Assembly: GCA_001553355.1 (NCBI GenBank)
Contig: KQ960828.1
Span: 67,668-131,667 of the forward strand
Direction of reading: 5' to 3'
Source of the DNA: Veillonellaceae bacterium DNF00626
Lineage (GTDB): Bacteria; Bacillota; Negativicutes; Veillonellales; Dialisteraceae
DNA: 64,000 nucleotides
The notes beneath the pieces are model-generated. The model ran no database searches and was not told the origin of the DNA. It was given only the letters and a program-made list of their open reading frames with translations. Below, in pieces: positions 7,989-57,798 of this stretch. A program made the position numbers and the translations under genes. How positions within the stretch are numbered: the stretch's first letter is position 1; every line of letters starts with the position of its first letter.

Positions 7989-9261
7989 GAATGGGATCAT
8001 TGTAAATCCGGTGAAGAATCAACATGAAAAAGGAGATGTAGTCATTGAGAACGGAAAAATTACTTCTTTAGGTGGCGTGGCTAAAGATTGTGATGGAGAT
8101 ATATTTGATGCCGAGGGCATGTTTGTGACCCCGGGATTGATTGATATGCATGTGCATTTGCGTGAACCCGGACAAGAAGCAAAAGAAGATATATCTACCG
8201 GAACAAGAGCTGCAGCGGCAGGTGGTATGACACAGGTGGCAACAATGGCAAATACTTGTCCAATCATTGACAAAGCTTCTATTCTTAGGGATGTTTTATA
8301 TCGTGTAAAAGAAGATGGTGTTGTAAAAGTTCATGTCATTGGCGCCGTTTCTGAAAAATTAGAGGGGAAGCGTTTATCTGAAATGGGAGATATGGCACTC
8401 GCCGGAGCGGTGGCATTTTCTGATGATGGTCACTATGTGGATAATGCTAATTTTATGCGTCGCGCTATGGAATATGCCGGGCAATTGGGAAAAATGATTA
8501 TCGATCACGCTGAAGATATAACTATGTGCGAGCAAGGTTTTATGAATGAAGGAGATATTTCTTATGCGCTTGGAGTAACCGGACGACCGGCAGTAGGAGA
8601 AAATATAGCAGTCGCACGAGATTTACTTTTAAGTGAGATGACCGGTTGTCATATTCACATTGCACATATTAGTTCAGCAAAATCGGTGGATATGGTAAGA
8701 GAAGCTAAGAGAAAAGGTATTTCTTGTACGGCAGAAGTGACCGCTCAACATTTATATTTTACTGATGAGTATTTGAAAAATTATGATTCTGCTTTTAAGA
8801 TGGCACCGCCATTGCGTACGGAAGAAGATCGGAAAGCCTTAATAGAAGGTCTTAAGGATGGAACCATTGATGCTATTATGACGGATCATGCGCCACATGC
8901 AAATGAAGAAAAAGATGTTCCGTTTACTTGTGCACCTAACGGTATTGCAGGATTGGAAACATCTTTGGCGTCCACTTTAACTGTTTTATATCATACCGGA
9001 GAAATGACTATGGACCGTATTGTGGAGGTTATGTCCGTCAATCCGGCTAAACTTTTGGGGATTTCCGGTGGAGTATTGGAAGAAGGTGGCATAGCCGACG
9101 TGACGGTGATTGATCCTAATAAAGAATGGGTGGTTCACGGAAAGGATTTGTATACGAAAGCTATTTTTACGCCTTATGAAAACATTTCTTTACGTGGAAA
9201 GGCGATGCTTACGGTAGTGGATGGACAAGTGGTAATGAGAGAAGGTCGGGTGCTTGTATGA
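7972..9261 (+). CDS. pyrC: Dihydroorotase
   Basis: 429 aa, class I type. It cyclises carbamoyl aspartate to dihydroorotate. Metal site motifs: HVHLREPG (His60, His62), then MTDHAPH further on. The start is TTG at 7972, chosen because GGAGGG sits 8 bases upstream and the protein then begins MKLIIKNG as in the family. It overlaps the end of pyrB by 17 bases and carA by 4 bases, so translation is coupled. Confidence 0.96.
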   Translation: MKLIIKNGIIVNPVKNQHEKGDVVIENGKITSLGGVAKDCDGDIFDAEGMFVTPGLIDMHVHLREPGQEAKEDISTGTRAAAAGGMTQVATMANTCPIIDKASILRDVLYRVKEDGVVKVHVIGAVSEKLEGKRLSEMGDMALAGAVAFSDDGHYVDNANFMRRAMEYAGQLGKMIIDHAEDITMCEQGFMNEGDISYALGVTGRPAVGENIAVARDLLLSEMTGCHIHIAHISSAKSVDMVREAKRKGISCTAEVTAQHLYFTDEYLKNYDSAFKMAPPLRTEEDRKALIEGLKDGTIDAIMTDHAPHANEEKDVPFTCAPNGIAGLETSLASTLTVLYHTGEMTMDRIVEVMSVNPAKLLGISGGVLEEGGIADVTVIDPNKEWVVHGKDLYTKAIFTPYENISLRGKAMLTVVDGQVVMREGRVLV

Positions 9262-13523: not shown

Positions 13524-14288
13524 ATGGCAGGAATTATTGAAAATGGAGTGGTGCGACGGAATGAATTAGTAGGACCATCTATTTATCTAATGCAAATTGA
13601 ATTACCTGAAACTGCAAGAAAGGCTAAGCCCGGGCAATTTATTCACATTAAGATAAATGATGGTACTCATCTTTTGCGCCGTCCTATTTCTATCGCCGGA
13701 GCAGATATAAAAAAAGGAGAAATAGAAATTATTTATCGCGTGGTGGGTATTGGAACGAAGAGGATGTCTATGTTGAAAGAAGGAGATATCGTTGATAGCT
13801 TAGGACCGCTGGGCACATCTTTTACCATGGATAAGAAGCATATTGTCGGTGTCGGAGGTGGAGTTGGTATTGCGCCGATTTTATTTATGGCACGACGTGC
13901 TAAAGAAGGACAGATGACGGTCGTTATTGGTGGAAGAAATAAAGAAGAAGTATTTTGGAAAGATTTATTTCCTTCCACGGTGAAAAAGCTTATCGTTACT
14001 ACCGATGATGGATCCTGTGGACGAAAAGGATTTTCTATTTCTGTATTACCGGAATTATTTCAAAAAGATAAAGTCGATGAATTATGTGTGTGCGGGCCCG
14101 GGGTTATGATGAGAAATGCTGCACAAATGGCAAAAGATGCTCTTGTTTATTGTGAAGTGTCTATGGAAAGACGAATGGGATGTGGCATTGGGACATGTTT
14201 GGCTTGTGTTTGCCAAGAAACAAAAGGAGGCCATAAAAAAGTGTGTCTTGATGGTCCTGTATTTCCTTCTACGGCGGTGATTTTATGA
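13524..14288 (+). CDS. pyrK: Dihydroorotate dehydrogenase electron transfer subunit
   Basis: 254 aa from the ATG at 13524, which has AAGGAG 7 bases upstream. An in-frame extension upstream lies within carB and is rejected. PyrK carries FAD and a [2Fe-2S] cluster and passes electrons from PyrD to NAD+. It has LLRRPISIA (FAD), VGGGVGIAP (nucleotide) and a C-terminal cysteine set CGIGTCLACVC...C for the cluster. It overlaps pyrD by 4 bases. The pair implies an NAD-dependent class 1B enzyme, which suits an anaerobe. Confidence 0.95.
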   Translation: MAGIIENGVVRRNELVGPSIYLMQIELPETARKAKPGQFIHIKINDGTHLLRRPISIAGADIKKGEIEIIYRVVGIGTKRMSMLKEGDIVDSLGPLGTSFTMDKKHIVGVGGGVGIAPILFMARRAKEGQMTVVIGGRNKEEVFWKDLFPSTVKKLIVTTDDGSCGRKGFSISVLPELFQKDKVDELCVCGPGVMMRNAAQMAKDALVYCEVSMERRMGCGIGTCLACVCQETKGGHKKVCLDGPVFPSTAVIL

Positions 14289-15190
14289 GCATTCGTGTAA
14301 ATTTTTTGGGTATAGATATGAAAAGTCCGATTATTGCAGCATCAGGAACTTTTGGTTTTGGTATCGAATGTAAAGATTATCTTGATCTCAATAAAGTAGG
14401 AGCTATTTCTTGTAAGGGACTTGCCATTACTCCGTGGAGTGGTAATGATGGCGTGCGTATTGCTGAAACTCCATCAGGGATCTTAAATTCTATTGGATTG
14501 GAAAATCCCGGTGTTGATGTATTTAAAGAAAAATATTTGCCGGAATTAAAGCGATATAATTTGCCAATTATTTGTAATATCGTTGGTAAGGATATAGAGG
14601 AATATGGGAAGGTCGCAAGAGCATTATCGGTAGAGGGAGTTCATGCGTTAGAAGTAAATATTTCCTGTCCAAATGTAAAAAATGGGGGTATTTCTTTTGG
14701 TACCGATCCAAAAATGGCGGCGGAAGTCACACGAGAAGTAAAACGAAATACACATCTTCCGGTAATGATGAAATTGTCTCCTAATGTGACGGATATTGTA
14801 ACAATTGCTAAGGCTGTGGAAGATAGTGGGGCAGATGCTATTTCCCTGATTAATACATTATTGGGAATGGCGATTGATATTCATACGCGAAAACCGATTT
14901 TAGGAAATATTACCGGTGGTCTTTCAGGTCCGGCTATCAAACCTATTGCACTCCGTATGGTTTGGCAAGTCAGTCAAGCTGTGCATATTCCTGTGTGCGG
15001 TATGGGCGGTATTATGACCGGTGAAGATGTGGTAGAATTTATGTTGGTCGGAGCGAAAACTGTACAAGTAGGGACGGCATCGCTTATAACACCGACGGCA
15101 ATTACAAATATTACTGAAGAATTCAATTGTTGGTGTCAAGAAAACAGGGTAGATGATATTACTCAATTAGTAGGGGCATTACAGATATAA
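14285..15190 (+). CDS. pyrD: Dihydroorotate dehydrogenase, class 1B catalytic subunit
   Basis: 301 aa. It oxidises dihydroorotate to orotate using FMN. The active-site Cys lies in NISCPNVKNGG, and the C-terminal GMGGI and VGTAS motifs bind FMN phosphate. It pairs with the upstream PyrK. It is the last gene of the operon: pyrE and pyrF, often next, are not in the window, so orotate conversion to UMP must be encoded elsewhere. Confidence 0.95.
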   Translation: MSIRVNFLGIDMKSPIIAASGTFGFGIECKDYLDLNKVGAISCKGLAITPWSGNDGVRIAETPSGILNSIGLENPGVDVFKEKYLPELKRYNLPIICNIVGKDIEEYGKVARALSVEGVHALEVNISCPNVKNGGISFGTDPKMAAEVTREVKRNTHLPVMMKLSPNVTDIVTIAKAVEDSGADAISLINTLLGMAIDIHTRKPILGNITGGLSGPAIKPIALRMVWQVSQAVHIPVCGMGGIMTGEDVVEFMLVGAKTVQVGTASLITPTAITNITEEFNCWCQENRVDDITQLVGALQI

Positions 15191-15304
15191 TAGGAAAATG
15201 GTAAATGAAATTAAATGTGTTTTTTGTGATTGAAAGTTTCCTTTTTTATATTATTAAAGACAATGACCGTCAAGGTATAATAGTCTATTATCATTAAAGA
15301 AAAG

Positions 15305-15342
15305 ATAAGAGTTTTCTTGAAATAGGGGGAACTCTTATTTTT
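15305..15342 (+). terminator. Hairpin with T-run upstream of tgt (terminator or leader attenuator)
   Basis: ATAAGAGTT (15305-15313), 16-nt loop, AACTCTTAT (15330-15338), then TTTTT. A TATAAT lies just upstream at 15276-15281, so the hairpin may be within a short tgt leader transcript instead of ending the pyr operon. The -35 element is weak. Confidence 0.5.
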
Positions 15343-15359
15343 GTGTCGTTTTTGTTTGA

Positions 15360-16544
<1,185 letters not shown>

Positions 16545-19850: not shown

Positions 19851-19861
19851 ATCTAATTAAT

Positions 19862-19905
19862 AAAAGCAACTTGTCTTTTATAAGAGTGCAAGTTGCTTTT
19901 TATTT
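19862..19905 (+). terminator. Rho-independent terminator after secF
   Basis: AAAAGCAACTTG (19862-19873) pairs perfectly with CAAGTTGCTTTT (19889-19900), followed by further Ts. It isolates the sec operon from the nitrogenase-like operon. Confidence 0.88.
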
Positions 19906-19934
19906 GTGTTGAATATGTTTTTATTTACTATTTT

Positions 19935-19995
19935 ACAAAATAATAATCGAAATTTGTCTATGTGCCTATTTTTTTCACTCCATTTTTTATATAAT
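19935..19995 (+). promoter_or_regulatory. Putative promoter and operator of the nitrogenase-like/chelatase operon
   Basis: TATAAT at 19990-19995 lies about 27 bases before the first start codon. The -35 is not consensus (T-rich). Just upstream is an imperfect inverted repeat, ACAAAAT-N9-AATTTGT (19935-19957), with an AT-rich centre. It could be a metal-regulator or other activator/repressor site. No cobalamin or other riboswitch is visible in this 116-base gap. Confidence 0.4.
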
Positions 19996-20021
19996 GATGT
20001 TAGTGGAAGGAGTAGGTATGT

Positions 20022-20840
20022 ATGAAAAAAATTGCATTTTATGGAAAGGGTGGAATTGGAAAGTCGACTACAGCTTCTAATGTGTCAGCAGCATTAAGTC
20101 TGTTGGGGAAAAAAGTTTGTCAAATTGGTTGCGATCCGAAAAATGATTCGACGCGGTTACTTTTGGGACATATTTGTAAGGAAACTGTGTTAGATAAAGT
20201 GCGAACAAAGGAAATAGATGAGATTGAAGTGGGAGATGTAGTGCATCAGGGCTTTAATGGCACTATTTGTGTAGAAGCCGGTGGGCCGGAACCGGGCGTT
20301 GGTTGTGCAGGTCGTGGTATTATTGTAGCGCTTCAGTTGTTGGATCGCCTTCATGCCGTGACTGATGTGGATTTGACATTGTACGATGTTTTGGGTGATG
20401 TCGTATGTGGAGGCTTTGCTATGCCGATTAGGGAAGGATATGCGACAGATATTTATGTAGTGTCGTCCGGTGAATTGATGTCTTTATATGCTGCAAATAA
20501 TATAGCGAAAGGGATACGTCGTTTTGCTGTACGTGGGAATGTGCGATTAGCAGGAATTATAGGAAATAGTAGAAATACACCGGGGGAGAAAGAATTACTT
20601 TTGGAATTTGCTTCAAAACTTAATACGCATTTAATTGCGTTTGTTCCTCGGAATAAAATTGTAAATATTGCGGAAAATCAGAAACAAACGGTACTTCAAT
20701 ATGCTCCGGACTCAGATCAGGCGAAGGTGTATTTTAAATTGGCGGAAGATATATGGAATAATGAAAATTTAACTGTACCTACGCCGATTGCTTTTGAAGA
20801 GTTGGAAAAGTTGGTAGAGGATTATGGAACCGAAAACTAA
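20022..20840 (+). CDS. NifH/BchL/CfbC-like ATP-dependent iron-sulfur reductase
   Basis: 272 aa. Homodimeric reductases of this family bind one [4Fe-4S] cluster between subunits and pass electrons to a NifDK-like partner with ATP hydrolysis. Visible: Walker A GKGGIGKS (8-15), IGCDPK (Asp38), Cys95 in GVGCAGRG, and Cys129 in [16 protein letters not shown]; the two cysteines are the cluster ligands. The match to NifH is strong through this region. A GGAAGGAG site is 9 bases upstream. First gene of the operon and followed by two NifDK-like subunits. With no nifE, nifN or nifB, true N2 fixation is unlikely. Confidence 0.9.
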
Positions 20841-22119
20841 ATGGCTGATATCGAAAAACCGATCATGCAGTTGTACCATGACCGGAGTGTGGCGGGCGGT
20901 AGCATTTTGTGAAGGATGCGCAGTTATCTTTCATAGTCCGTTAGGCTGTGTTCACGTGGCAGATAAATTGGAATTAGGATCTTATTATCGCATTGTGGCA
21001 GAAGGCGGTAGAGAGCGTTTTGATTTGGTACCTTTGGTTTCTTCAAATATGCGTGAAAAGGATACGATTTTTGGGGCAGTTAATAGGTTGCATCAGTGTA
21101 TTTCTTTTGTAATGGAGAATTATAAGCCGAAATGTCTTTTAATTGCGACATCTTGTGTAGCAGGGGTTATTGGTGATGATGTGGAATCGGAAGCAGAAGA
21201 AGCAGAAATGAACTACGGGATTCCTGTCTTGTGCATGCCTTTTGGTGGATTTTTGGGTGGAGAATATTCTGATGGGTATTATAAAACGATTGATATGATT
21301 ATTCATCGGTTTTTTAAGGTGCAAAAAAAGGTGAAGGGGACGGTACTTCTTTTAGGAGATCAGATGGGACCGGAAGGTCAGTATGCTAAAGAGGTGAGAC
21401 GTATATTGTCACTTTTTGGTTTAACCGTGAAATGGCAATTTCCTGCTTATGTACCTTTTGATGAATGGAGTACATTGCCATCAGCAGAGCTTATGGTTCT
21501 TTTGGGACGGTCCGGCGAGTCGGAAGGACTTATACGTACAGCAGAAATGCTGGAGGAAGAATATCATATTCATAATTTAGGATTTATATATCCTATTGGT
21601 TGGGAAAATACTTGTGCATGGATACGGAAAATTGCAGAATGGCAAGGAAATTTACCATTAGGTGAAAAAATTATTGATGAAGAGGAGAAAAGACTGACTG
21701 AATATGTAAAAACGATTTTACATGTAACGGAAGGGAAAATAGCATCTATTGGCATTGGTAGGGGACCTATATGGTATGATCCCGGAGATACTATTCGCTC
21801 AGTGAGTCGACTTCATATGAAGTTACAATGTGTAATTTTATATGATAATTTAAGTGATAAAGAAAAAGAAATTTATCGTGAAAGAATTCGGAAATATACA
21901 GATGTACCTATTCTTGATGGAAAAGATAGTCAAATGATGATGGATAATTCAGATTTGCTTTTAACTACCAATGAAATAGTAAATACTAAAGCGAAACAAT
22001 TTTTTATTCCTATGGTGCCATTAGCAGGAACAACCGGGGAAATAGTAACGTTGCGTACGTTGTATCGCCTACTTTGTCGCTATGGAAATAAAGGGGGTAT
22101 TGCTTATGCCACAGTATGA
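20824..22119 (+). CDS. Nitrogenase component 1-like subunit (NifD/BchN-like)
   Basis: 431 aa. A NifD-superfamily fold is suggested by three cysteines in the P-cluster/NB-cluster pattern: Cys17 (CTMTG), Cys42 (HSPLGC) and Cys111 ([14 protein letters not shown]). Extra Cys15, Cys29 and Cys32 lie nearby. I see no equivalents of the NifD Cys275 and His442 that hold FeMo-co, so the active site probably binds an organic substrate or another cofactor. It starts 17 bases before the previous stop. It pairs with the next gene to make the catalytic component; the substrate is unknown. Confidence 0.82.
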
Positions 22120-23383
22120 ATGGGGAGCAGCTTGCCATTTTTCCGGCACATGTGCGTTAACAGGTTCAGCCACCTTTTTTGTATCTATTCCGGGTAGTTA
22201 TGTAATGGTGAATGGGCCTTTATGGTGTTATTTTTATGCTATGCGACATGTGGAAAGTGTCATACCCGGTGCAGCATCGAGATTTTATTGTACGCAGCCA
22301 TCACAAACGTCTTTAATTTATGGTACGGAGCAAGATTTGAATGAGGGATTTGAGTATTTAAAAAAGAACGTTTCACCTGAGCGTTTATTTATACAAAATA
22401 ATTGCAGTATTAGTATGGTAGGGGATGATTTAAAGGGAATTGCTGCAAAAGCAAAGCTTCCTTATCCGGTATACACTATGGACAGTGGTGGATTAAGTGG
22501 TAGTTTTGAAGGCGGATATAGTAAAGCTCTGGTACTTGTCGTTAATGAAATGAAAGCACAAAAGACGGTGGATAATTCAGTGAATATATTGGGATTATCT
22601 AATACAATGTTTCGAGGAATGGCTAACGGTAAAGAAATCACACGGATTCTTGAAGAAAGTGGAATTTCTGTTATATCGACGCCGGGTTTAGGTGATAAAT
22701 GGGAACAAATCATGGAAGCGCCTAAAGCAGCACTAAATGTTGTAGTGCGTGATGAATTGGGGCTTAGTGCAGCAGAAAAAATGAAAGAAATTTTTGGTAT
22801 TCCCTACATCTCTATTGGACTACCTTTTGGCATTGATGGAACGATAGATTGGCTTTCACAAGTGAAGAAAGCTTTACCGGGGTTGGAATTATCAAAAGTT
22901 GAATGTGAGGCTAAGGAGAAAAAAGAAAAATTAAAGCATATTGGAAGTAATAATGAATCTATGTGGGGCCCGTTGTGGTTTGATCGTATTTTAGTTTCTG
23001 CACCACCATCGGAAGCTATGGGAATTGCTGATGCCATACGAAATGAGTGGGTCGATACGGAAAAATTGATAATCCATTTTTTAGTACCTTGTGATTTGAA
23101 TCCACGATCAGCAGATATCATTCGTAATGTAGGAAAAGATGATCAGGGAATCAAGGAAGATTATGATGCATGGGTGGATGGTTTAGTATTGGGGAGTTCT
23201 CATGAAGCAGCAAGGCTTATCCGTTTACAAAAAAAGTTTATGAGTATTAACATTACACGACCTTCATATAATGAAGTAGCAGTGGATGATTTGCCTATTT
23301 GTGGATTAAGAGGAGCAGAGTATCTTTTTGGTCGGTTATGGAACGTGAAATTATTTAGGAGAATGGAAGAACAAAAGACATGA
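22106..23383 (+). CDS. Nitrogenase component 1-like subunit (NifK/BchB-like)
   Basis: 425 aa from the ATG at 22106, preceded by AAGGGGG; it overlaps the NifD-like gene by 14 bases. NifK-like hallmarks: Cys10/Cys16, VNGPLWC (Cys41), the FYCTQPSQTSLIYGTEQDL segment (like NifK's CxYGGTEKL), and NNCSISMVGDDL (Cys100). It would form a heterotetramer with the preceding subunit and receive electrons from the NifH-like protein. Having two distinct subunits resembles DPOR/COR or the NflDK enzymes more than CfbD, which is a single-subunit type. Confidence 0.82.
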   Translation: MPQYEWGAACHFSGTCALTGSATFFVSIPGSYVMVNGPLWCYFYAMRHVESVIPGAASRFYCTQPSQTSLIYGTEQDLNEGFEYLKKNVSPERLFIQNNCSISMVGDDLKGIAAKAKLPYPVYTMDSGGLSGSFEGGYSKALVLVVNEMKAQKTVDNSVNILGLSNTMFRGMANGKEITRILEESGISVISTPGLGDKWEQIMEAPKAALNVVVRDELGLSAAEKMKEIFGIPYISIGLPFGIDGTIDWLSQVKKALPGLELSKVECEAKEKKEKLKHIGSNNESMWGPLWFDRILVSAPPSEAMGIADAIRNEWVDTEKLIIHFLVPCDLNPRSADIIRNVGKDDQGIKEDYDAWVDGLVLGSSHEAARLIRLQKKFMSINITRPSYNEVAVDDLPICGLRGAEYLFGRLWNVKLFRRMEEQKT

Positions 23384-24345
23384 AAAAATTTTTTCTTTTT
23401 TTGATATTATTTATAGTATCCTTTACCACGGCTTGTAATTTTACAGGAAATTCCGGGTTTTCATCATCCGGTTCAGCGTATGAAGTAACCGATGATGAAA
23501 ATCGTATTGTTCGATTACCTCATAAACCGATAAGAATAGTATCTCTTACTTATGGTACAGATGAAATCTTGCTTGGATTAGTAGATATTGAACGAATAAA
23601 AGGTTTATCAAAGTATGCAGGAAATCCGGATATTTCTTTTGTTTCAGAAAAAGAGAAGGAAATGGTTGGTGTATCGGTAGAGCTTAATGCGGAACAAATT
23701 GCATCACTTACACCCGATTTGGTATTGGCGTCACCGGCTATTTCTAAAGCATTAATTCATACATTAGAAGAAATGAAAATTCCGGTTTATATTGCTGCAT
23801 CTCCTAATAATTGGGAGGAAATGGAAAAGCGTATACGTGGTATTTCGAGAGCGGTAGATGAAATTAAGCGTGGGGATGATATGATTGCAGAGATGAATGA
23901 AAAGAAAAAAGTATTGGATGAAAAATTATCTATTATCACTCCGGGGAAAGAACGAGTTGTTTTGGGATTATATTTTAGAGGAATTTTAGGGAAAAAAGGG
24001 ACACTTTTTTGCGAAGTTTTGCGTATGGCTCATGTAAGAGATGGAGCAGAGGATATTGAAATACCTAGGGGATCTAACGCATATTTGTCTAATGAAATGA
24101 TTCCACGCATTAATCCTGACGTATTGCTTATGCCGGTGTGGAGAGTAAAAGATGGGGATAATCCGGATGAATTTGCCAATGAGATGATGACGAATCCGGC
24201 TTATCAAAATGTGAAAGCTGTAAAAAATCATCGATTAGTTCCTTTGCAGGAAAAATATAAATATGTTATGTCGCAGCATTTGGTTGATGCGATAGAAGCG
24301 ACAGCAAAAGCGGTGTATCCTGAATTGTGGGAAGATTGTGAATAG
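23380..24345 (+). CDS. Periplasmic-binding lipoprotein of the BtuF/FepB type
   Basis: 321 aa. Signal peptide with lipobox FTTAC (lipidated Cys19), then a class III binding-protein fold typical of receptors for corrinoids, haem and Fe(III)-siderophores (RIVSLTYGTDEILLGLVD, LVLASPAI, NPDVLLMP). It overlaps the NifK-like gene by 4 bases and is followed at once by the CobN-like gene. No permease or ATPase of the BtuCD kind is in the window. It may bind the pathway's tetrapyrrole substrate or metal outside the membrane and borrow a transporter encoded elsewhere. The ligand is inference. Confidence 0.8.
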   Translation: MKKFFLFLILFIVSFTTACNFTGNSGFSSSGSAYEVTDDENRIVRLPHKPIRIVSLTYGTDEILLGLVDIERIKGLSKYAGNPDISFVSEKEKEMVGVSVELNAEQIASLTPDLVLASPAISKALIHTLEEMKIPVYIAASPNNWEEMEKRIRGISRAVDEIKRGDDMIAEMNEKKKVLDEKLSIITPGKERVVLGLYFRGILGKKGTLFCEVLRMAHVRDGAEDIEIPRGSNAYLSNEMIPRINPDVLLMPVWRVKDGDNPDEFANEMMTNPAYQNVKAVKNHRLVPLQEKYKYVMSQHLVDAIEATAKAVYPELWEDCE

Positions 24346-24354
24346 GTGATAACA

Positions 24355-27300
24355 ATGGAAGGGAAAGTTTTATATATAACGAATATTGATCGTCGATTTT
24401 CCATGATGAGAAAAGCTTGCGATATACTTCATGAGGATAATTTGATTCCATCAGATTATGAAGTGTTGAAAATTGATGCGATGACGGCGTTTACCGATGT
24501 GTGGGAACGTAAATTAGTTCATAGTGATTTAGTGATTATCCGCTTTATGGGAAATACGATCCGCACGCTTTTCTGGGATAAATGCCTTCATTTTTTGCGT
24601 ACTCAAAAAATTCCCTTTTACATGGATGCATCGGGATCGGCAGAAGGGGAATTTGGCGATGGAATTTCTGATGACGTAGCTGATTTAATAAAAAAATATA
24701 GCACTTATGGCGGAATTGAAAATTATAAAAATCTCTGGTATTATTTGGCTTCTCTTTTTAATCCTGAGATACAAAATGTACCTTTGCCTGAGTCTTATTG
24801 TTGGGCAGGTATATTTCATCCGGATTTGCCGAAAACTTATACAACTGATGTAAAAAATTATGTAAATAAATATATAGATCCACAAAGACCTACGATCGGT
24901 TTTGTTTTTTATCGTGATGAATGGATATGGGGGGATTTGGCGTATCAAACGGCATTTATACGAGAGGCAGAAAAGCAAGGTGTAAATGTTATTTCGGTAT
25001 TTACAAATGGAATGCCTGATGCATCAGCAGGAATGCCTTCTATTAAAGAAGTATTCCAAAAATATTTTACTTGTAACGGGAATACAATTATAGATGTGAT
25101 GGTGAATGTAATGAAATTTTCATTTACTACATCGGGTTCTATATCGGTAGAAGATTTAAAAGTTTTAGGAGTTCCTATTTTACAAGCGTATTCCCTTATT
25201 ATGCCTAAAAAAGAATGGGAAGAGTCATCAGAAGGTATGAACCCCATGGAAATTTCCATTAGTATTTCTATTCCGGAGTTTGATGGAATCATTCATGGGG
25301 TACCTATAGCATATAAGCATTTTACGAAGAATGATGAAGTGGAATATTTACCTATGGAAGAACGGATGGCACGAATGGTCTCAAAAGCAAAAAAATGGGC
25401 CATGCTCCACCGAAAGGCAAATAAAGATAAGAAAATAGCAATTATATTTCATAATTATCCTCCCACTAATTCGTCTATTGGAAGTGCTCTCGGGTTAGAT
25501 AGTATAGAAAGTATTCGTAAGCTTCTTGAACGAATGAAGCAAGAAGAGTATGCGGTAGATTTTATCCCTGAAAATACAGAATCTTTTATGGACATATTAA
25601 CATCCCATGCGACTAATGATATGACGATGATGACAGAAAAACGTCTTGAAATGTGTCAAAAGGTATCAAAAGAAACGTATAAGAATTTTTATCAAACGTT
25701 TGAAAATTCTGTGAAGAAACAGATGGAAAAAGATTGGGGAGAAGCACCGGGAAAAATTATGTTTCATAATGATGGCTTGCTTGTACCGGGAACAATGGAT
25801 GGAAATGTGTTTATTACGGTACAAGCACCTCGAGGATATGGGATGGATCCGGACAAGGTCTATCATGATCCTCTTGTAGCTCCTACGCATCAATATATTG
25901 CTTTTTATGAGTGGATCCGTGATGTATGGAAGGCAGATGCAGTTATTCATGTAGGTACACATGGAAATTTGGAATGGCTTCCGGGTAAAGGGGCAGGTTT
26001 GGATAGAGCCAGTTATCCGGATTTGGCATTGGGAGATTTGCCGGATCTTTATATCTATCATATGACGATTACCGGAGAAGGTATTCAAGCGAAACGACGT
26101 GGGGCCGCTTGTTTGATTGACCATTTGCCGGCACCATTAGCGGAAGCCGGTACTTATGATGAACTTACTGAATTAGATAAAACATTAGAAGAATATGCAC
26201 ATTTTAGGCAAACAGAACCGGGAAATGTGACGGCTTTAGAACCGCTTATTCGTGAGTTAGCAGTAAAAGCCAATTTAGATGGAGAGGTTCCATTGCATGA
26301 TGGAGAGGATTTTTCTCATTATGCCGAAGAGTTACATGAGTATGTGGAAGAATTAAAAAATAGCGAAGTACATATCGGGCTGCATATATTGGGGAAAGAA
26401 CCTGAAGGAGAAATTTTGATTGAAGATATTATTCAGTTGTTACGACTCCCTAATGGAGATATACCGTCTATTTATGCATTGTGGGCAGAGAAATATCAAG
26501 TGGAATATGATGCACTCATTGAGTCCCCCAGTGAATTTTATGAGCCTCTTCAGATAACTTATAGTCGACTTTTTGAAAAAATAAAAGAAGAAATTAAAGT
26601 GATGGTATCGTTTTTAGTGGCCCATGGATTTATGAAAGAAATACAAAAAGAAGCTCTTGCGTTGCCTTATATTTCAATCGGTGATGAAGAGTGGAAAGAA
26701 CATGTGCATATGATGATTTCCTATATATGTGATACTCTTATTCCCTTATTATCTAAGACGCATGAAGAATTAGATCACTTAATGGATGGGCTTGCAGGTA
26801 AGTATGTATTACCCGGGCCATCAGGTTCACCCCATACCGGTGGTGTTTCATTACTTCCTTCAGGAAGAAATTTCTTTGGTATCGATCCACGTATTTTGCC
26901 TACAAAAGCAGCGTGGAGTTTGGGACAAAAATTAGGAAATCAAATGATTGAAGAATATGTAGCGGCTGAAGGAAAATATCCGGAAAATGTGGGGATTGTT
27001 TTCTGGGCCGGTTCTAATATGCGAAGCCGAGGACAATGCATTGCGGAATATTTATATCTTTTAGGAGTGAAGCCTATATGGGAAAAAGGAAATTTATATG
27101 TCAAAAGATTGGAAGTTATCCCCTTGGAAGAGTTGAAGCGGCCACGTATTGATGTGATGGGACGTATTAGCGGACTCTTCCGAGATACAATGCCGCAAGT
27201 AGTAAAGCTTGTTGATAAAGCCGTGCTTATGGTGGCTGATTTAGATGAACCTAAGGAATTAAATTATGTTAAAAAGCATGTAATAGATGATAGTCAGGAA

Positions 27301-28080
27301 ATGATGGCATCCGGCGTATCGAAAGAAGAGGCATGGAGACGAGCGGCATATCGTATTTTTGGTGATGCACCGGGAACGTATGGCGCCGGTGTTTCCAAAG
27401 TTCTTGATGCAAAGAATTGGCAAACGATTGATGATTTAGCGGATGTTTATGTACGATGGGGCGGTCATGCTTATGGCGGAGATGCTCATGGAATGTATTC
27501 ACCGGAACTTTTTAGGAAACGTTTATCCGTCACTGATGTAACCATTAAGAATGAAAATAATCACGAAACGAATGTACTTAGTTCTGATGATTATAATGCT
27601 TATCATGGCGGAATGATTGTTGCGGTGAAAAGCATTAGCGGAAAAGCGCCTCGTTCCTACGTAGGGGATACTACCGATCAATCGAAACCACGGACTACAT
27701 CGTTACAAGCAGAAGTAAAGCGTATTTTTAGAACAGAATCTATTAATCCTAAATATATCGAAGGATTGATGAAACATGGATATAAAGGAGCTTCAGATTT
27801 AGCCAAAATGCTATCAGTTAGTTATCAATGGGATGCTACATCGGATGTGATGGATGATTGGATGTATGATAAATATGCAGAGAAATATGTATTTGATAAA
27901 GATGTACAAAATTGGATGCGACAAGTAAATCCTTGGGCATTGCAAAATATGGCAGAAACTTTATTAGAAGCACAAAAACGCGGAATGTGGAATACTTCGG
28001 AAGAAATGGTAAAAAAACTTCAAGCATTATATTTATCAGTAGAAGGTGATTTAGAAGAAACCGGTGATGATGATGGATGA
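24355..28080 (+). CDS. CobN/BchH-like chelatase large subunit
   Basis: 1241 aa from the ATG at 24355; a GTG at 24346 is also in frame, but AGGTGAT fits 24355 better. CobN and BchH/ChlH bind the tetrapyrrole and receive the metal ion. Family hallmarks: HVGTHGNLEWLPGKG from residue 532 and RPRIDVMGRISGLFRD from residue 929; the length matches the family. It follows the binding-protein gene directly and shares the operon with BchI-like and BchD-like ATPases, giving a complete three-subunit chelatase. The metal (Mg, Co, Ni or other) and the macrocycle cannot be told from the sequence. Confidence 0.9.
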   Translation: MEGKVLYITNIDRRFSMMRKACDILHEDNLIPSDYEVLKIDAMTAFTDVWERKLVHSDLVIIRFMGNTIRTLFWDKCLHFLRTQKIPFYMDASGSAEGEFGDGISDDVADLIKKYSTYGGIENYKNLWYYLASLFNPEIQNVPLPESYCWAGIFHPDLPKTYTTDVKNYVNKYIDPQRPTIGFVFYRDEWIWGDLAYQTAFIREAEKQGVNVISVFTNGMPDASAGMPSIKEVFQKYFTCNGNTIIDVMVNVMKFSFTTSGSISVEDLKVLGVPILQAYSLIMPKKEWEESSEGMNPMEISISISIPEFDGIIHGVPIAYKHFTKNDEVEYLPMEERMARMVSKAKKWAMLHRKANKDKKIAIIFHNYPPTNSSIGSALGLDSIESIRKLLERMKQEEYAVDFIPENTESFMDILTSHATNDMTMMTEKRLEMCQKVSKETYKNFYQTFENSVKKQMEKDWGEAPGKIMFHNDGLLVPGTMDGNVFITVQAPRGYGMDPDKVYHDPLVAPTHQYIAFYEWIRDVWKADAVIHVGTHGNLEWLPGKGAGLDRASYPDLALGDLPDLYIYHMTITGEGIQAKRRGAACLIDHLPAPLAEAGTYDELTELDKTLEEYAHFRQTEPGNVTALEPLIRELAVKANLDGEVPLHDGEDFSHYAEELHEYVEELKNSEVHIGLHILGKEPEGEILIEDIIQLLRLPNGDIPSIYALWAEKYQVEYDALIESPSEFYEPLQITYSRLFEKIKEEIKVMVSFLVAHGFMKEIQKEALALPYISIGDEEWKEHVHMMISYICDTLIPLLSKTHEELDHLMDGLAGKYVLPGPSGSPHTGGVSLLPSGRNFFGIDPRILPTKAAWSLGQKLGNQMIEEYVAAEGKYPENVGIVFWAGSNMRSRGQCIAEYLYLLGVKPIWEKGNLYVKRLEVIPLEELKRPRIDVMGRISGLFRDTMPQVVKLVDKAVLMVADLDEPKELNYVKKHVIDDSQEMMASGVSKEEAWRRAAYRIFGDAPGTYGAGVSKVLDAKNWQTIDDLADVYVRWGGHAYGGDAHGMYSPELFRKRLSVTDVTIKNENNHETNVLSSDDYNAYHGGMIVAVKSISGKAPRSYVGDTTDQSKPRTTSLQAEVKRIFRTESINPKYIEGLMKHGYKGASDLAKMLSVSYQWDATSDVMDDWMYDKYAEKYVFDKDVQNWMRQVNPWALQNMAETLLEAQKRGMWNTSEEMVKKLQALYLSVEGDLEETGDDDG

Positions 28081-29137
28081 TAAATCGTTACCACCTATTC
28101 GGATGTTGGTACTGACACTTACAGGTCGTTGTAATTTTACTTGTCAATATTGTTATGCTTCGGAGCAAGAACAAATTGATATGGATGAAAAAACAGCGTT
28201 GTCTGCTGTAACGATGGCAGGTTTATCAGGGAAACGGTTTTTATTACAGTTTTCCGGCGGTGAGCCATTATTACAGTTTCCGTTAATTCGCAAGGTTGTT
28301 CATTTGGTAGAGCAAAATAATTGGAACGCACAAATGCAAATTCAAACCAATGGATCGTTATTAACTAAGGAAATAGGTAAATGGCTTTATGATCATCGTG
28401 TGGGAATTGGTATTTCTTGCGATGGTAGACCAAAAGTGATGAATCGTACACGGCAATTAAAGGATGGTAGACCGTCATCATCGGTGGTGGGATATGCCTT
28501 TCAAAATCTTGTGAAAAATGGAATTGAAACAGGAGTGACTTGTGTCGTAACTGATGATATGGTGAAGGAACTTGACGGTATTGTTGATATGGCATATTTT
28601 TATGGTAATGTTCATCAAATTGGTTTTGACATACTTCGTGAACAAGGTCGTGGTATGAGATTGCAAGCACCGACGGGACAACAAATGACCGAAGCATTAG
28701 AGAAAACTGCACGAAAAGTAGATGAGTTTACGAAATTAACAGGGCGGGAAGTGCATTTTACACAAGAGGACAAGGTGGCAATGCTTAAGCGGACAGGGAA
28801 ATATGATTTTCCGCATTGCTTTGCTATGAATGGAGAGGCCGCTTTTGTTGATGTGAAAGGTGGAATTTATGCTTGCTCATCTTTAATGGGGCAAGAAAAA
28901 TATTGTATTGGTACGGTAGCGGATGGTCGAGATGTAAAAAAAGTAAGAGCAGTGGCGTATTTTATTGAAAAAGCAATGAAACCTTGCCGAGAGTGTGAAT
29001 ATTTCTTTTTATGCGGCGGTGGTTGTTTTTCAAGATGGCTAGATAAGAATGGCGAAATACATATTTCAGAGGCTGAATGTGCTATGAAAAAATTTTTTAT
29101 TCAGAGATATTTGAGGAGACATGGGGAGGCATTATGA
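28067..29137 (+). CDS. Radical SAM enzyme with SPASM domain
   Basis: About 356 aa. The start is uncertain: GTG 28064 and ATGs at 28067, 28070 and 28073 are all in frame and no Shine-Dalgarno decides. Radical SAM motif CNFTCQYC (Cys22, 26, 29 from the 28067 start), then FSGGEPL for SAM binding. The C-terminal SPASM part has cysteines in [22 protein letters not shown] and [14 protein letters not shown], for auxiliary [4Fe-4S] clusters. SPASM/twitch enzymes NirJ, AhbC and AhbD edit tetrapyrrole side chains; others modify peptides. No precursor peptide gene is visible, so tetrapyrrole editing is favoured here. Confidence 0.82.
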
Positions 29138-30162
29138 AAAGACAAGAAACATTTCCATTTACAGCAATTATTGGTCAAGATGATATGAAATTAGCACTCA
29201 TTTTAAATGTAGTGAATCCAAAGTTAGGTGGTGTATTAATTCAAGGCGAAAAGGGAACCGCCAAGTCTACGGCTGTTCGTGCTATTACTGATTTAATGCC
29301 CCTTCGTAGATGTATTGTCGGTAGTCGTTATCATGATGATCCGGATGATCCTGCTATATGGAGTGATGAAAGTCATAAATTATATGATGGGAAAGAACCG
29401 CCGGTAGAGTTATTGCCTATGAAAGTGGTGGAACTTCCTGTGAGTGCCACAGAAGATAGAGTTGTGGGCACATTAGATATTGAAGTGGCGATCCATGAAG
29501 GGAAACGATCTTTTGAGCCGGGCATATTGGCAGATGCCAATAGAAACATTCTTTATGTAGACGAAATTAATTTGCTTGATGACCATGTAGTTGATGTATT
29601 ACTTGATTCAGCAGCTATGGGCGTCAATACCGTAGAAAGAGAAGGCATTTCCTATTCGCATCCGGCTCATTTTTCTTTAGTGGGGACAATGAATCCCGAA
29701 GAGGGAGACATTCGTCCGCAACTTTTAGATCGATTTGCGTTATCAGTAAAAGTGGTGGGAGAACAAAATCCGGAGAAACGAGCAGAAATCATTAAACGGC
29801 GATTAGCTTATGAAAGTGATCCTGAAAAATTTCTTCTATCATGGAAAACAGAACAAGAAAAGGAAACGAAGCATATCGAAGAAGCCATGACATTATTACC
29901 TAAGGTTACTACATCGGATGAGATATTACTTTTAGCAGCTAAAATAGCTATTTCTCTTGGGGTAGACGGACATCGTTCGGATATTACTTTAATAAAAACG
30001 GCAGAGACCATAGCTGCAGTAGAAGGACATAGTAAAACAACAAAAGAAGACGTACGGAAAGCTTCACGATTAGTCCTTCCTCATCGTATGAGACGCCGAC
30101 CATTTGAAGAGCAAGTAGTTGATTGGTCAGTAGTGGATAAGGTTATTGATGATGAAGAATAA
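29134..30162 (+). CDS. BchI/ChlI-like chelatase AAA+ subunit
   Basis: 342 aa from the ATG at 29134 (GGGGAGG just upstream; 4-base overlap with the radical SAM gene). Mg-chelatase I subunits form AAA+ rings that power metal insertion. Walker A GEKGTAKS (38-45), Walker [13 protein letters not shown], sensor [19 protein letters not shown], and [12 protein letters not shown] in the helical lid. The TMNPEEG and RPQLLDRF motifs are typical of the ChlI family. It partners with the next, paralogous gene. Confidence 0.9.
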
Positions 30163-32107
30163 TTATTTTCCCTTTGTGGCTCTTTATGGAATGGAGAAGG
30201 TAAAAGAAGCTATTCTTTTAGCACTTATCAATCCTTGTTCCGGTGGTATCTTGATATCAGGTCGTAAAGGGACCGGGAAGTCTACGGTTATGCGTGCTGC
30301 ACGTGAATTAGTAGATGGACCATGGGCAGATGTACCTATTAGTGTCACAGAAGATCGACTTTTTGGGACCATTGATATGGAGAAAGCTCTTAGTAATGGT
30401 AAACGAGAGTTATTGCCCGGTTTAATTCATAATGTACATGGTGGAATCATGTATATCGATGATGTGAATCTTTTTCGTGAAGATTTATTGGCGACTTTAT
30501 TGGAAATAAAAGATCAGCATTTATATTTTTTGGAAAGAGACGGTATTTCAATCCAAAGTTATGTGGATTTCTCTCTTATGGCAGTCATGAATCCGGAAGA
30601 AGGAACACTTTCTAATACGGTGTTGGATCATTTTGGGTTGTTTGTAGAAGTTGAAGATGATTATGATGAAGTTGGGCGTACAGAAATTATTAAACGATCA
30701 CTTGCGTTTGAAAAAGATGGAATTGCTTTTGCCAAAAAGTATGAAAAAGAAACCGTTGAATTGAAAAATAAAATTTGTCATGCCAAAGAAATATTATCCG
30801 GTATGGAAGTTTCCTCTGCGATGATTCAATTAGCAGCGGTATATGCCTTGAAAGCTCATGTATCCGGACATCGGGCAGATATTTATTTAATTGAAACAGC
30901 CAAAGCTGTCGCTGCATGGAATGGTCGATCTTATGTACTGCCTGAAGATATAGAAAAAGCGGCAGAATTTGTTTTACCGCACCGTATGAGAAAAAATAAT
31001 GAACCTAATAATTCTTCTGATTATCAAGAGAATGAGTCTGTGGATAATAATCAAAACCATTCTGATGATAAAGCACCTAAAGATATGAATGAAAATTCAG
31101 GAGATTCAGGAAAAGATCAAGAAGAAAATTCTCAGCAATCTTTTGCGGACAATCAAAATAATCAAGATAAAAAAGATAATACATCAGGTAATGATGCTGA
31201 TACCAATTCAGACTTAGAGAATAGAGAAGAATCAAATGGCACATCTACTTCGAAAGATAAAGTGGAGATGCCTGATTGGCATGTAAAAATTCCGCCTATA
31301 TGGATTGATCCCGGTGAAAATCATAGAGTAAAACGGGGTACAGGGAAACGAAGTTTGACACGTACATCTCTTAAAACAGGAAGATATGTTCGCGTGCAAA
31401 TTCCCAAAGAAAAAACATCGGATATTGCTTTTGATGCTACATTGCGAGCTGCCGCCCCATATCAGAAATTGCGGAAACATGGAAATTGTACTGTGATGAT
31501 TGAAAAAGAAGATATACGTAGCAAAGTGAGAGAAAAGCGTATTGGAAATATTCTGCTCTTAGTGGTAGATTCAAGTGGATCTATGGGAGTCGCAGAAAGA
31601 ATGAAAACCGTGAAAGGCGTTATCTATAAAATTCTTATGGAGGCTTATCAGAAGCGTGATCGAGTGGGGCTTATTGCTTTTAGAAAAAATGAAGCGGAGG
31701 TATTACTTCCTGTAACACGAAGTGTGGACTTTGCAAAACAAAAACTTGAGAAATTGCCGGTGGGCGGAAAAACGCCTTTAGCCAAAGGGCTGATGAAAGC
31801 AGAAGATGTGTTAGATATGCTTTATCGGCAGGATAATACGCAAGAACCGGTGGTCATACTTATCACTGATGGACGTGCAACAAGTGCAGTAGAAAAGAAT
31901 GGAAATCCTGTTGAAGAAGCCTTACAAGAAGCGGGAAGAATTGGACGGAGAAAATTGCCTACGGCGGTGATTGATACGGAATCCGGTTTTATTAAATTGG
32001 GATTGGCTAAAGATATAGCGAAAAAAATGGGGGCATCTTATTTTCATATGGATAAACTTACAGAAGAGGAGATTCTTCGCATATGGAAAAGCACAGTGGT
32101 TTCATGA
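30149..32107 (+). CDS. BchD/ChlD-like chelatase subunit (AAA+ plus VWA)
   Basis: About 652 aa; the ATG at 30149 or 30152 is the likely start, inside the end of the I-like gene. N-terminal AAA+ with Walker A GRKGTGKS (38-45), parallel to the previous gene, and Walker [11 protein letters not shown]. Residues about 285-365 are a low-complexity linker rich in Asn, Asp, Ser, Glu and Gln. A C-terminal VWA domain has a MIDAS motif DSSGSMG starting at residue 474 and TDGRATS. D subunits bridge the I ring to the H/CobN subunit. Last gene of the operon. Confidence 0.9.
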
Positions 32108-32172: not shown

Positions 32173-32301
32173 GCCGAAATATTTATTCTCTCGTGATAAC
32201 GTGGTAAAATTAAAGTTAATATTATTCGTTGAACTTTTTACATGAAATTATGGATATTGAAGGCAGTTTTAGACTCGAAATTGAATAGACAGGAGAATAA
32301 G

Positions 32302-34041
32302 ATGATTAAACAATTTATGTACTACTATAAACCATATATGTCATATCTTATTGGGGTTATTTTAGGTACTTTTATCATGGCTATTTTGGATCTCATATTT
32401 CCTGTGGTTGTTCGTGACTTGATGAATCACGTATTGCCGGATAAAGATATGGTCGCATTATGGAAAGGTGCTATTCTTCTTTTGGTTTTGTATATGATAA
32501 GTTTTGCTATTTCTTATGCTGTTCAATACTATGGGCATGTTATGAGTGCATCCATAGAAAATGACATGAGAAGTGATTTATTTAGTCATATAGAAAAGCA
32601 ATCTTTTCGTTATTTTGATAATGAAAAAACCGGACATTTACTCTCACGTATTACCGGGGATATTTCTGAAATAAGTGAGTTGGCATTTCGCGGACCAAAT
32701 GATGTATTGCTTTGCGGTATTATCATGTCCGGGACTATTGTCGCTATGTTTATTATGAATTGGAAATTAGCGATTTTAATTGGAGCGCTTTTGGTTGCGA
32801 AATCTCTTCATACAGTGAAATTTAATACGAAAATGAAATATGCTTTTCGCGCGAATCGAGTGAAAGCCGGGGAATTGAGTGCAGTGACAGAAGAAAGTTT
32901 ATCAGGCATTCGATTAGTAAAAGCATTTGCAATGGAGGATTTTGAACATAAAAAATTTGTCAAAAAAAGCGAAGAATTACGTAATAAAAAATTTCAATCT
33001 TACAAATTAGTTGCCTATTTTTCCGGAAGCATCAATTTTTTTACTAATTTTATTAACGTTGTAGTTCTTTTAGCCGGCGGATATATGATTGCAGTTGATA
33101 TGTTGGCATTATCCGATTTTGTGGCATTTCTACTATACGTAAATATTTTCATGAAACCTGTATTCCGATTGACAATTTTGACAGAAGTATATCAACGTGG
33201 ATTAGCAGGATTTGCACGATTTGAGGAAATTATGCATACAAAACCTTTAATTACTGATGTAAAGCATCCAAAAGAAATAAAAAATCTTCATGGAGATATT
33301 GCATTCAAAGATATGTCTTTTGCTTATGCGGATGACCGATATATTCTGAAACATCTGAATTTTCATATTCCTGCCGGTCAAACAGTGGCATTTGTAGGCG
33401 AGACAGGAGCAGGGAAAAGTACATTAGTTAATTTGTTACTTCGCTTTTATGATGTTACAAAAGGGGCTCTTTTCTTGGACGGTGTGAATATTAAAGAATA
33501 TCGTCAACGTGATTTACGTAAAAATATAGGTATTGTTCAGCAAGATGTATTTCTTTTTGGCAATACAATTAGGGAAAATATCGGTTATGGAGACCCTCAA
33601 GCTTCTTTGGAGGAAATTAAAAGAGCGGCACAAATGGCGGCAGCTCATGACTTCATTATGGAACTTCCGGAAGGTTACGACACGAAAGTGGGAGAAAGAG
33701 GAATAAATTTATCCGGAGGGCAAAAGCAACGTATTGCTATGGCACGTGTATTTTTGAAAAATCCACCGGTGGTTATTTTAGATGAAGCCACTTCTTCTTT
33801 AGATACTGAAACGGAAAAAACAATTCAAGATACTTTAGATTTATTAGCTAAAGACAGGACAACACTTATTATTGCCCATCGTTTATCAACTGTGCGAAAT
33901 GCCGATCGAATTATGGTGTTGGATAAAGGTGAAGTTATTGAAGAAGGCACACATGATGAATTAATGGAAAGACGAGGGAAATATTTTAGTCTTTATGAAG
34001 CTCAAAAAAAGAAAGATAAATGGAATGAAGATGATGATTGA
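32302..34041 (+). CDS. ABC exporter half-transporter (MsbA-like, fused membrane and ATPase domains)
   Basis: 579 aa from the ATG at 32302, preceded by AGGAG; the longer in-frame start at 32242 lacks this. Six membrane segments in the first ~300 residues, then an ATPase domain: Walker A GETGAGKS (366-373), Q-loop QQDVFLFG, signature LSGGQKQ (470-476), Walker B VILDEATSS and His switch IAHRLS. Such proteins dimerise to export lipids, drugs or peptides. It lies downstream of the chelatase operon on the same strand, after an inverted repeat. A role in exporting the operon's product is possible but not shown. Confidence 0.88.
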   Translation: MIKQFMYYYKPYMSYLIGVILGTFIMAILDLIFPVVVRDLMNHVLPDKDMVALWKGAILLLVLYMISFAISYAVQYYGHVMSASIENDMRSDLFSHIEKQSFRYFDNEKTGHLLSRITGDISEISELAFRGPNDVLLCGIIMSGTIVAMFIMNWKLAILIGALLVAKSLHTVKFNTKMKYAFRANRVKAGELSAVTEESLSGIRLVKAFAMEDFEHKKFVKKSEELRNKKFQSYKLVAYFSGSINFFTNFINVVVLLAGGYMIAVDMLALSDFVAFLLYVNIFMKPVFRLTILTEVYQRGLAGFARFEEIMHTKPLITDVKHPKEIKNLHGDIAFKDMSFAYADDRYILKHLNFHIPAGQTVAFVGETGAGKSTLVNLLLRFYDVTKGALFLDGVNIKEYRQRDLRKNIGIVQQDVFLFGNTIRENIGYGDPQASLEEIKRAAQMAAAHDFIMELPEGYDTKVGERGINLSGGQKQRIAMARVFLKNPPVVILDEATSSLDTETEKTIQDTLDLLAKDRTTLIIAHRLSTVRNADRIMVLDKGEVIEEGTHDELMERRGKYFSLYEAQKKKDKWNEDDD

Positions 34042-53842: not shown

Positions 53843-54053
53843 AAATGTGAACAGGTCTGTGGTTGAAAGTCGAAGCCAGTCGCAGGCAAAACGATCCACG
53901 TAAGGTATACAAAGGTGTACTGAGCATGGTGCGGCTTAGAAGTAAGTCCTGCCGAGAAAATCGAGAGAGTGAGTTGTGAGAGGTAAATACCGGGTAGCTA
54001 AAATTCCAGCAGGCGAGTGTGGGGTCAAAAACCAGGTCAGCTGTTTATATTTT
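53843..54053 (+). ncRNA. Structured non-coding RNA, ~210 nt (candidate raiA-motif RNA)
   Basis: A 12-bp closing stem is visible: AAATGTGAACAG (53843-53854) with CTGTTTATATTT (54041-54052), allowing G-T pairs. Inside is a hairpin GTATAC-AAAG-GTGTAC (about 53909-53924), and AAGCC/GGCTT and GCAGG/CCTGC pairings that cross each other, as in a pseudoknot. There is no ORF. Segments such as GTTGAAAGTCGAAGCCAGTC and GATCCACGTAAGG look like conserved core sequence and remind me of the raiA motif, but that identity is from memory. It precedes the cysS T-box; whether the transcript is shared is unknown. Confidence 0.6.
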
Positions 54054-57593: not shown

Positions 57594-57798
57594 CGTAAAC
57601 ACAAGGATTGAGATAGTATTTTTGCTTTGCTTTACAGAGAAAAGGTGGTTGGTGCAAACCTAAGCAAATAAAAATATGTCCCCTCAGGAGTGGTCGGTGA
57701 TGAATCGGACGGCAAGTAACCGTTATTACATTGAGTTGGCTTATGCAATTTGGGTGGCACCGCGATGACTTCGTCCCATGAGGAAGAGGTCTTTTTTT
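57594..57798 (+). promoter_or_regulatory. T-box leader of serS (Ser specifier TCC)
   Basis: GA element ACAGAGAAAAGGTGG, then GGTGCAAACC, then the specifier TCC at 57679-57681 (Ser). Canonical T-box TGGGTGGCACCGCG at 57751-57764; TGGC pairs with the GCCA end of tRNA-Ser. The terminator is GACTTCGTCC (57767-57776) with GGAAGAGGTC (57782-57791) and seven Ts. Seryl-tRNA shortage would switch on serS. Confidence 0.92.
57767..57798 (+). terminator. T-box terminator hairpin before serS
   Basis: 10-bp stem with one G-A mismatch, a CATGA loop and a run of Ts. Confidence 0.85.

Follow-up and report, generated by a model that had tools for sequence, protein, structure and literature searches.

What would a bacterium do with an operon in which a nitrogenase-like reductase is joined to a metal chelatase? 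The question is raised by positions 20022-32107 (+ strand) of a stretch of 64,000 nucleotides of Veillonellaceae bacterium DNF00626 (contig KQ960828.1, positions 67,668 to 131,667), which was analysed as a whole and is called the window below. The assembly that holds the operon is 1.59 Mb in size and 99% complete. Nitrogenase-like enzymes are known for chlorophyll, bacteriochlorophyll, F430 and some carbon-sulfur reductions; to our knowledge, none is known for vitamin B12. With a confidence slightly above even, we read the operon as a salvage and processing module for corrinoids (vitamin B12-type compounds), in which the NifH-, NifD- and NifK-like proteins (H, D and K, together HDK) form a so far unnamed clade of nitrogenase-like reductases with a corrinoid as substrate. 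The substrate class is probably corrinoid, as judged from the regulation and gene neighbours in relatives and not from the window alone.

All eight genes were confirmed as open reading frames at the expected coordinates. An earlier note, made from the sequence of the window, had described eight overlapping genes of these families, and coordinates, strand and matches to Pfam and NCBIfam agree with it. The operon and its two flanks are as follows.

19851..20021, no strand: gap of 171 bases upstream of H, without a cobalamin riboswitch, unlike several relatives (riboswitch searches).
20022..20840, + strand: H, NifH-like Fe protein of 272 aa, with a Walker motif and the 4Fe-4S cysteines C95 and C129 (PF00142, E 1.5e-109).
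20824..22119, + strand: D, NifD-like subunit of 431 aa, with the P-cluster cysteines C17/C42/C111 and without the Cys275 ligand (PF00148, 5.5e-49).
22082..23383, + strand: K, NifK-like subunit of 433 aa, with the P-cluster cysteines C24/C49/C108 (PF00148, 8.7e-42).
23380..24345, + strand: periplasmic binding lipoprotein of the BtuF/FepB/IsdE type, with the lipobox FTTAC (PF01497, E 6.9e-24).
24346..28080, + strand: CobN, class I metal chelatase large subunit, with the motif HVGTHG at 535 (PF02514, 1256 bits; TIGR02257).
28064..29137, + strand: radical S-adenosylmethionine (SAM)/SPASM enzyme, with CxxxCxxC at 23 and SPASM cysteines at 308-321 (PF04055 and SPASM cysteine pattern).
29077..30162, + strand: I, BchI/CobS-like (ChlI-type) AAA ATPase, with a Walker motif (TIGR02030, 400 bits; TIGR02442, 475 bits).
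30146..32107, + strand: BchD/CobT-like (ChlD-type) AAA and VWA protein, with the MIDAS motif DSSGS (TIGR02442, 600 bits; TIGR02031, 416 bits).
32242..34041, + strand: MsbA-like ATP-binding cassette (ABC) exporter, the downstream neighbour after a gap of 134 bases (PF00664 and PF00005).

From H through the BchD-like gene the spacings are, in order, -17, -38, -4, 0, -17, -61 and -17 bases, so that neighbouring genes overlap by 4-61 bases or, in one case, abut exactly; translational coupling of the eight genes is therefore very likely on this sequence evidence. The true start of the I gene is probably an ATG ~57 bases downstream of 29077. The cysteines of the radical SAM enzyme were invariant across 21 homologues.

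Is HDK one of the known nitrogenase-like enzymes? H scored below the cut-offs of both NCBIfam nifH (382 bits, cut-off 394) and CfbC (366 bits, cut-off 402), and far below those of BchL (226 bits) and BchX (187 bits), while C95 was kept in 47 of 47 and C129 in 48 of 48 homologues. D and K are nitrogenase component 1 proteins that fall far below the cut-off of every named subfamily. In a maximum-likelihood tree of 63 proteins, in which 15 D and 15 K homologues were included, CfbD and group VI were absent and MarD was a partial sequence, the D homologues formed one clade and the K homologues another (each 100/100, on long branches). Both clades lay outside NifD/NifE and MarD/Nfl and apart from BchN, B, Y and Z. 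D joined NifD/E together with the D-side of Mar/Nfl at 100/99, and MarD grouped with the other Nfl-D proteins at 99/98 and above, not with D. The deeper branching order is unsure in this sequence comparison, because the tree has no CfbD or group VI sequences, a partial MarD and long Bch branches. The tree that the earlier note had proposed as a check thus gave, CfbD aside, a separate lineage outside NifDK, MarD, BchNB and BchYZ.

The P-cluster cysteines were kept in 58-59 of 59 homologues in D (C17/C42/C111) and in 59 of 59 in K (C24/C49/C108). At the column of Cys275, which ligates the iron-molybdenum cofactor (FeMo-co), the 15 D proteins compared had Gly (13) or Ser (2); a cysteine was present there in every NifD, NifE, MarD and Nfl-D compared. 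In the C-terminal half of D no His was conserved at 95% among 59 homologues, a comparison that did not include the column of the FeMo-co ligand His442 itself. The AlphaFold model of D (mean predicted local distance difference test score, pLDDT, 85) matched NifD and MarD in Foldseek, and that of K (pLDDT 90) matched AnfK, NifK and BchB.

The maturation protein NifB found no match in the window genome, in line with the earlier note's remark that nif maturation genes were missing, and none in 9 of the 18 HDK genomes tested, the window genome included; it was above cut-off in only 4 of the 18 (Sporomusa, Pelosinus and Anaerospora). The only full-length NifH above cut-off and the only component 1 proteins found in the window genome were the operon's own. 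An enzyme that reduces sulfur, carbon or nitrogen compounds, of the nitrogenase or methylthio-alkane reductase kind, would fit with MarD (143 bits) as the solved structure to which D is closest in sequence. It is nevertheless very improbable: the D clade stands apart from Mar/Nfl and NifD/E, the cofactor-ligating cysteine is absent, and NifB is without a match in the window genome and eight others of the 18. HDK as a nitrogenase or a methylthio-alkane reductase was rejected on these three grounds. D and K are most simply read as a reductase driven by ATP, with a relay resembling the P-cluster, the type of cluster being one we infer, and a cavity free of metal cofactor.

Other nitrogenase-like genes were seen in the relatives. 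Plasmid pSPTER of Sporomusa termitida carries a different NifH-D-K-like trio (L118:5086-9173, 14171-16261), which falls outside the D/K clade, adjoins an iron-type ABC transporter and lies near a TonB receptor; its subunit at 7944-9173 has lost all three P-cluster cysteines. Pelosinus has a second K-like gene after CobA (L078:10671-12029 and L079:14748-16112); the copy in L078 is inside the K clade, so K has been duplicated without D. A metagenome-assembled genome (MAG) of Phascolarctobacterium has, beside its main cluster, a second and divergent one (L059:3-6058) composed of CobN, a nitrogenase-like pair and a radical SAM protein.

On what, then, would HDK act? A scan of the D alignment against ~85,000 species genomes gave 60 loci with D homologues, all in Negativicutes plus one in Pelotomaculum. 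The Negativicutes genera are Dialister, Succiniclasticum, Phascolarctobacterium, Selenomonas, Mitsuokella, Schwartzia, Sporomusa, Pelosinus, Anaerospora and Veillonella, and the relatives that carry HDK are gut, mouth and sediment bacteria. An Rfam scan of 14 neighbourhoods detected 21 cobalamin riboswitches (RF00174). A riboswitch, with scores of 95-118 bits, lies directly 5' of H in Sporomusa ovata (8843-9026, H at 9187), Anaerospora (8853-9034, H at 9160), Phascolarctobacterium faecium (8903-9079, H at 9196) and a Veillonellaceae MAG (L082, 8953-9116, H at 9127). In Schwartzia and Pelosinus it is followed by CbiK and then HDK, and in Sporomusa acidovorans it heads the cluster with one short gene between. 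A strict riboswitch pattern drawn from these elements had 0 matches in 1.7 Mb of shuffled sequence. In many loci where no riboswitch was detected, a divergent MerR-family regulator precedes HDK or the receptor gene (e.g. L120:4546-5394, and other Phascolarctobacterium).

The neighbouring genes point the same way. A B12-specific neighbour was present in 32 of 58 HDK loci (CbiZ in 20, CbiR-like in 17, riboswitch in 15, CbiK in 8 and CobA in 6), and many loci also have TonB receptors and transporters of the FecCD/BtuCD type. Pfam matches were strong for CbiZ (E 1e-54), CbiK (2e-97) and the adenosyltransferase CobA (2e-67). The CbiR-like neighbour (u11) is an AP endonuclease 2 protein (PF01261) in a B12 neighbourhood, which by family and position may be CbiR; CbiR, of the cobamide-remodelling clade of the AP endonuclease 2 superfamily, is described in PMC7733943. 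In one genome (G424) a single run comprises riboswitch, H, D, K, CobN, permease, ATPase, radical SAM gene, I, BchD-like gene, CobN, CbiR-like gene, ExbB/D and TonB, after which come a tetrapyrrole methylase, CbiL as judged from its position, and then CbiA and CobA; cbiG/H/J/C lie ~15 kb before the HDK-CobN cluster. One contig of P. faecium holds HDK, CobN, the radical SAM gene, CbiZ, TonB receptors, the two chelatase ATPases, the cbi operon (cbiD onward) and several riboswitches. Taken together, neighbours for uptake (TonB receptor, binding protein, FecCD-type permease and ATPase), remodelling (CbiZ, CbiR-like) and adenosylation (CobA) suggest that imported or recycled corrinoids are made usable.

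The earlier note had seen the parts of a bacteriochlorophyll or F430 synthesis without the rest of either pathway. The window contig, though, carries an anaerobic cobamide (cbi) operon ~70 kb upstream of the HDK operon, in which Pfam identified CbiD, and searches CbiJ and CbiC. A pathway of the bacteriochlorophyll or F430 kind is not supported. A tetrapyrrole function does find support. The note's suggestion that tetrapyrroles are harvested and reworked was right in kind and is supported in the specific form of corrinoid salvage, given the TonB/ABC uptake genes, CbiZ, CbiR-like gene, CobA and riboswitches of relatives; its undescribed metallo-tetrapyrrole or pigment is not needed.

Could HDK instead be a step of cobamide synthesis? 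It might reduce a cobalt isobacteriochlorin of the anaerobic B12 pathway, as a cobalt parallel of CfbCD, which acts on Ni-sirohydrochlorin a,c-diamide. CbiK directly 5' of HDK under one riboswitch in Schwartzia and Pelosinus would suit such a ring reduction, as would an H nearly as close to CfbC as to NifH and the confinement of HDK to genomes with CbiC (20 of 21, the exception being a 75% complete assembly). CbiC and CbiJ also occur, however, in relatives that lack HDK (G003, G005 and G008), the HDK neighbours are mainly uptake and remodelling genes, and HDK is no substitute for CbiJ. The last idea was rejected because, of the HDK genomes tested, only one, a 75% complete assembly, was without CbiJ. 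Ring reduction, which with help in metal exchange by CobN (below) is one of the two main rivals of the Co(I) reading, is regarded as rather unlikely. HDK is accessory and not essential for making cobamides, because some cobamide makers do without it. In addition, chelatases of the CbiK type with an apparent signal peptide, which would probably be periplasmic, occur near cbi operons (L094:14563-15552 and L122:8847-9884).

Is the chelatase part of the same machine? The gene order of the window (H-D-K..CobN-radical SAM-I-BchD-like) recurs in Dialister succinatiphilus and, with added transport genes, in Phascolarctobacterium and a Veillonellaceae MAG; Selenomonas has the same gene set in a different order. 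The modules are separable. In two relatives of another genus (L030 and L031), HDK lies between secF and the ABC exporter as in the window, minus the five downstream genes, and the CobN part has therefore been gained or lost as a block. In both, the exporter is directly 3' of K; in the window it probably lies outside the module. Among the 58 HDK loci, 34 had CobN and 20 the radical SAM gene, and 16 had none of the partner genes, several of these being short contigs. CobN was missing in 4 of 21 HDK-bearing genomes (G009, G010, Pelosinus propionicus and Veillonella ratti) and occurred without HDK in some Dialister and in G003 and G005. An obligate eight-gene pathway was rejected on the genomes without CobN and the loci without partners. 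A small histidine-rich protein of 107-112 aa with an internal repeat recurs near HDK in Phascolarctobacterium (L057:7016-7339, L051:8529-8867 and L120:1901-2233); no Pfam family matched it above cut-off.

CobN of the operon scored 923 bits to TIGR02257 cobalto_cobN (cut-off 822), and among solved structures it was nearest to CobN (671 and 612 bits), followed by ChlH (532) and HmuS (384). By its sequence it is an ordinary member of the cobaltochelatase family, separable from HDK, and it may insert or remove cobalt. The earlier note had named membership of known cobaltochelatase or methylthio-alkane reductase clades as evidence against a new system; CobN does fall inside the former, and D/K fall outside the latter. 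A second CobN lies elsewhere in the window genome, with TonB receptor and ABC transporter genes. In two Sporomusa species the CobN beside HDK is fragmented (L062:6544-8349 and L080:1857-4877), with intact copies elsewhere in those genomes.

Two further explanations turn on CobN. In the first, HDK lowers the oxidation state of cobalt or another metal, and CobN with the I and BchD-like proteins removes or inserts the metal in an imported tetrapyrrole, as a cobalt counterpart of HmuS. CobN stands near HDK in many genera (the 34 loci above), heme de-chelation by HmuS is NADH-dependent (PMC12583661), and CbiK of the cbi pathway already inserts cobalt early, so that CobN needs another role. Set against this are the HDK genomes without CobN, the occurrence of CobN without HDK in G003 and G005, and the ATPase partners of the operon CobN, which HmuS lacks. 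The body motif of HmuS, LSLDHxxEFMGG (PMC12583661), is also absent from the CobN of the operon; with this domain V motif missing and ~290 bits in favour of CobN, a HmuS-type de-chelatase was disfavoured. Metal exchange is accordingly judged unlikely. The second explanation has the receptor, lipoprotein and CobN obtain iron from heme of the host in the manner of HmuS, with HDK as the electron donor. TonB receptors and binding proteins that score alike to heme, siderophore and B12 families, hosts in gut and mouth and the homology of HmuS with CobN (PMC12583661) are in keeping with heme or porphyrin harvesting. Cobalamin riboswitches, CbiZ, CobA and cbi genes near HDK in relatives, and a CobN nearest to CobN and not to HmuS, make it quite unlikely.

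Several observations weigh against corrinoid salvage as the function of the operon. No riboswitch was found 5' of the window operon at gathering or permissive thresholds or by pattern, nor before that of D. succinatiphilus; the window genome has cobalamin riboswitches elsewhere. HDK has no B12 neighbour in Succiniclasticum and some Dialister relatives, CobA is next to it in few genera only, and the cobamide producers G003, G005 and G008 lack it. The lipoprotein matched heme and siderophore binders with slightly higher scores than BtuF, and each of these scores was far short of its cut-off. The AlphaFold models of D and K are monomers without ligands.

How would corrinoid salvage by HDK work? 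H would hydrolyse ATP and deliver low-potential electrons one at a time; a P-cluster-like Fe-S cluster at the D-K interface, bound by the six conserved cysteines, would accept them and relay them to a substrate in the cavity that FeMo-co fills in nitrogenase. Since the cofactor ligand is missing, this cavity would be free for a tetrapyrrole, as in dark-operative protochlorophyllide oxidoreductase (DPOR), chlorophyllide oxidoreductase (COR) and CfbCD, nitrogenase-like reductants that act on tetrapyrroles (PMC12552129). The most likely reaction would reduce the cobalt of the corrinoid to the Co(I) state on which adenosylation depends, or would be a closely linked step in making imported corrinoid usable; ATP-driven nickel reduction is described for F430 (PMC12176620). 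Reduction to Co(I) in particular is a tentative and rather doubtful proposal, and the exact reaction is a guess. CobN and its two ATPases would insert, or possibly remove, cobalt, the lipoprotein would capture imported corrinoid, and the radical SAM enzyme may have some editing or maturation role. To a B12-specific enzyme of this design, with a P-cluster-type relay and an empty cofactor cavity reducing a corrinoid, possibly with CobN stripping or exchanging cobalt, we give a little short of an even chance.

A literature search, which left out most subscription papers, found no paper linking nitrogenase-like genes with CobN, chelatases or B12 riboswitches. The novelty lies in a nitrogenase-like clade with ties to the B12 regulon, in a sequence comparison that did not extend to the group VI (Elusimicrobia) paralogues. 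If the reading is true, the tetrapyrroles served by ATP-driven enzymes of the nitrogenase superfamily, so far chlorophylls and F430, would be joined by one more. A branch in which a P-cluster-type relay works without an active-site cluster would bear on whether nitrogenase arose from tetrapyrrole reductases, and gut and oral succinate and propionate fermenters would have a new corrinoid-processing step. Some H proteins pass the NCBI nifH cut-off: that of P. faecium (L086:9196-10017; 400 bits, cut-off 394) would be annotated as a nitrogenase iron protein. Counts of nifH in gut surveys may thus be inflated by B12 genes.

Elsewhere in the window, a raiA RNA (53846-54049, 199.7 bits) and a T-box leader (57595-57781) just 5' of a seryl-tRNA synthetase-like gene were detected.

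Which known systems come closest to the operon? CfbCD likewise combines a NifH-like protein and a nitrogenase-like subunit with a metal-loaded tetrapyrrole substrate and no FeMo-co, and H scores 366 bits to CfbC. CfbD, however, is a homodimer (PMC12552129), whereas D and K are two different proteins; the score of D to CfbD is 38 bits, with a cut-off of 268 (the tree held no CfbD sequence), and HDK stands in a cobalt/B12 context in bacteria. DPOR (BchLNB) and COR (BchXYZ) share the H2 plus (DK)2 architecture and the open tetrapyrrole cavity, and BchB is among the best structural matches of K. HDK keeps six P-cluster cysteines, whereas only one of the three on their side remains in BchB and BchZ, and D/K neither exceed the Bch family cut-offs nor group with BchN/B/Y/Z, a placement that is unsure at depth given the long Bch branches. 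MarHDK and the group IV Nfl proteins have the P-cluster cysteines, and MarD is nearest to D among solved structures; the D clade is separate, D has Gly or Ser where MarD and all Nfl-D have the cysteine of the Fe8S9C cluster, and the window genome has no NifB match. Mo nitrogenase (NifHDK) has the same three P-cluster cysteines per subunit, but here the Cys275 ligand is absent, and neither NifB nor NifEN maturation genes were found in the window genome. With the class I cobaltochelatases (CobNST or CobN-ChlID) the operon shares a CobN above the NCBIfam cut-off and adjoining I and BchD-like ATPases, unlike them, this CobN stands in a genome where the CbiK/cbi route already provides early cobalt insertion, and its operon also contains HDK and a radical SAM enzyme. 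HmuS, the heme de-chelatase of Bacteroidota, is also a CobN-like protein linked with TonB uptake genes; it is ATP-independent (PMC12583661), whereas the operon CobN comes with its two ATPases and without the domain V motif.

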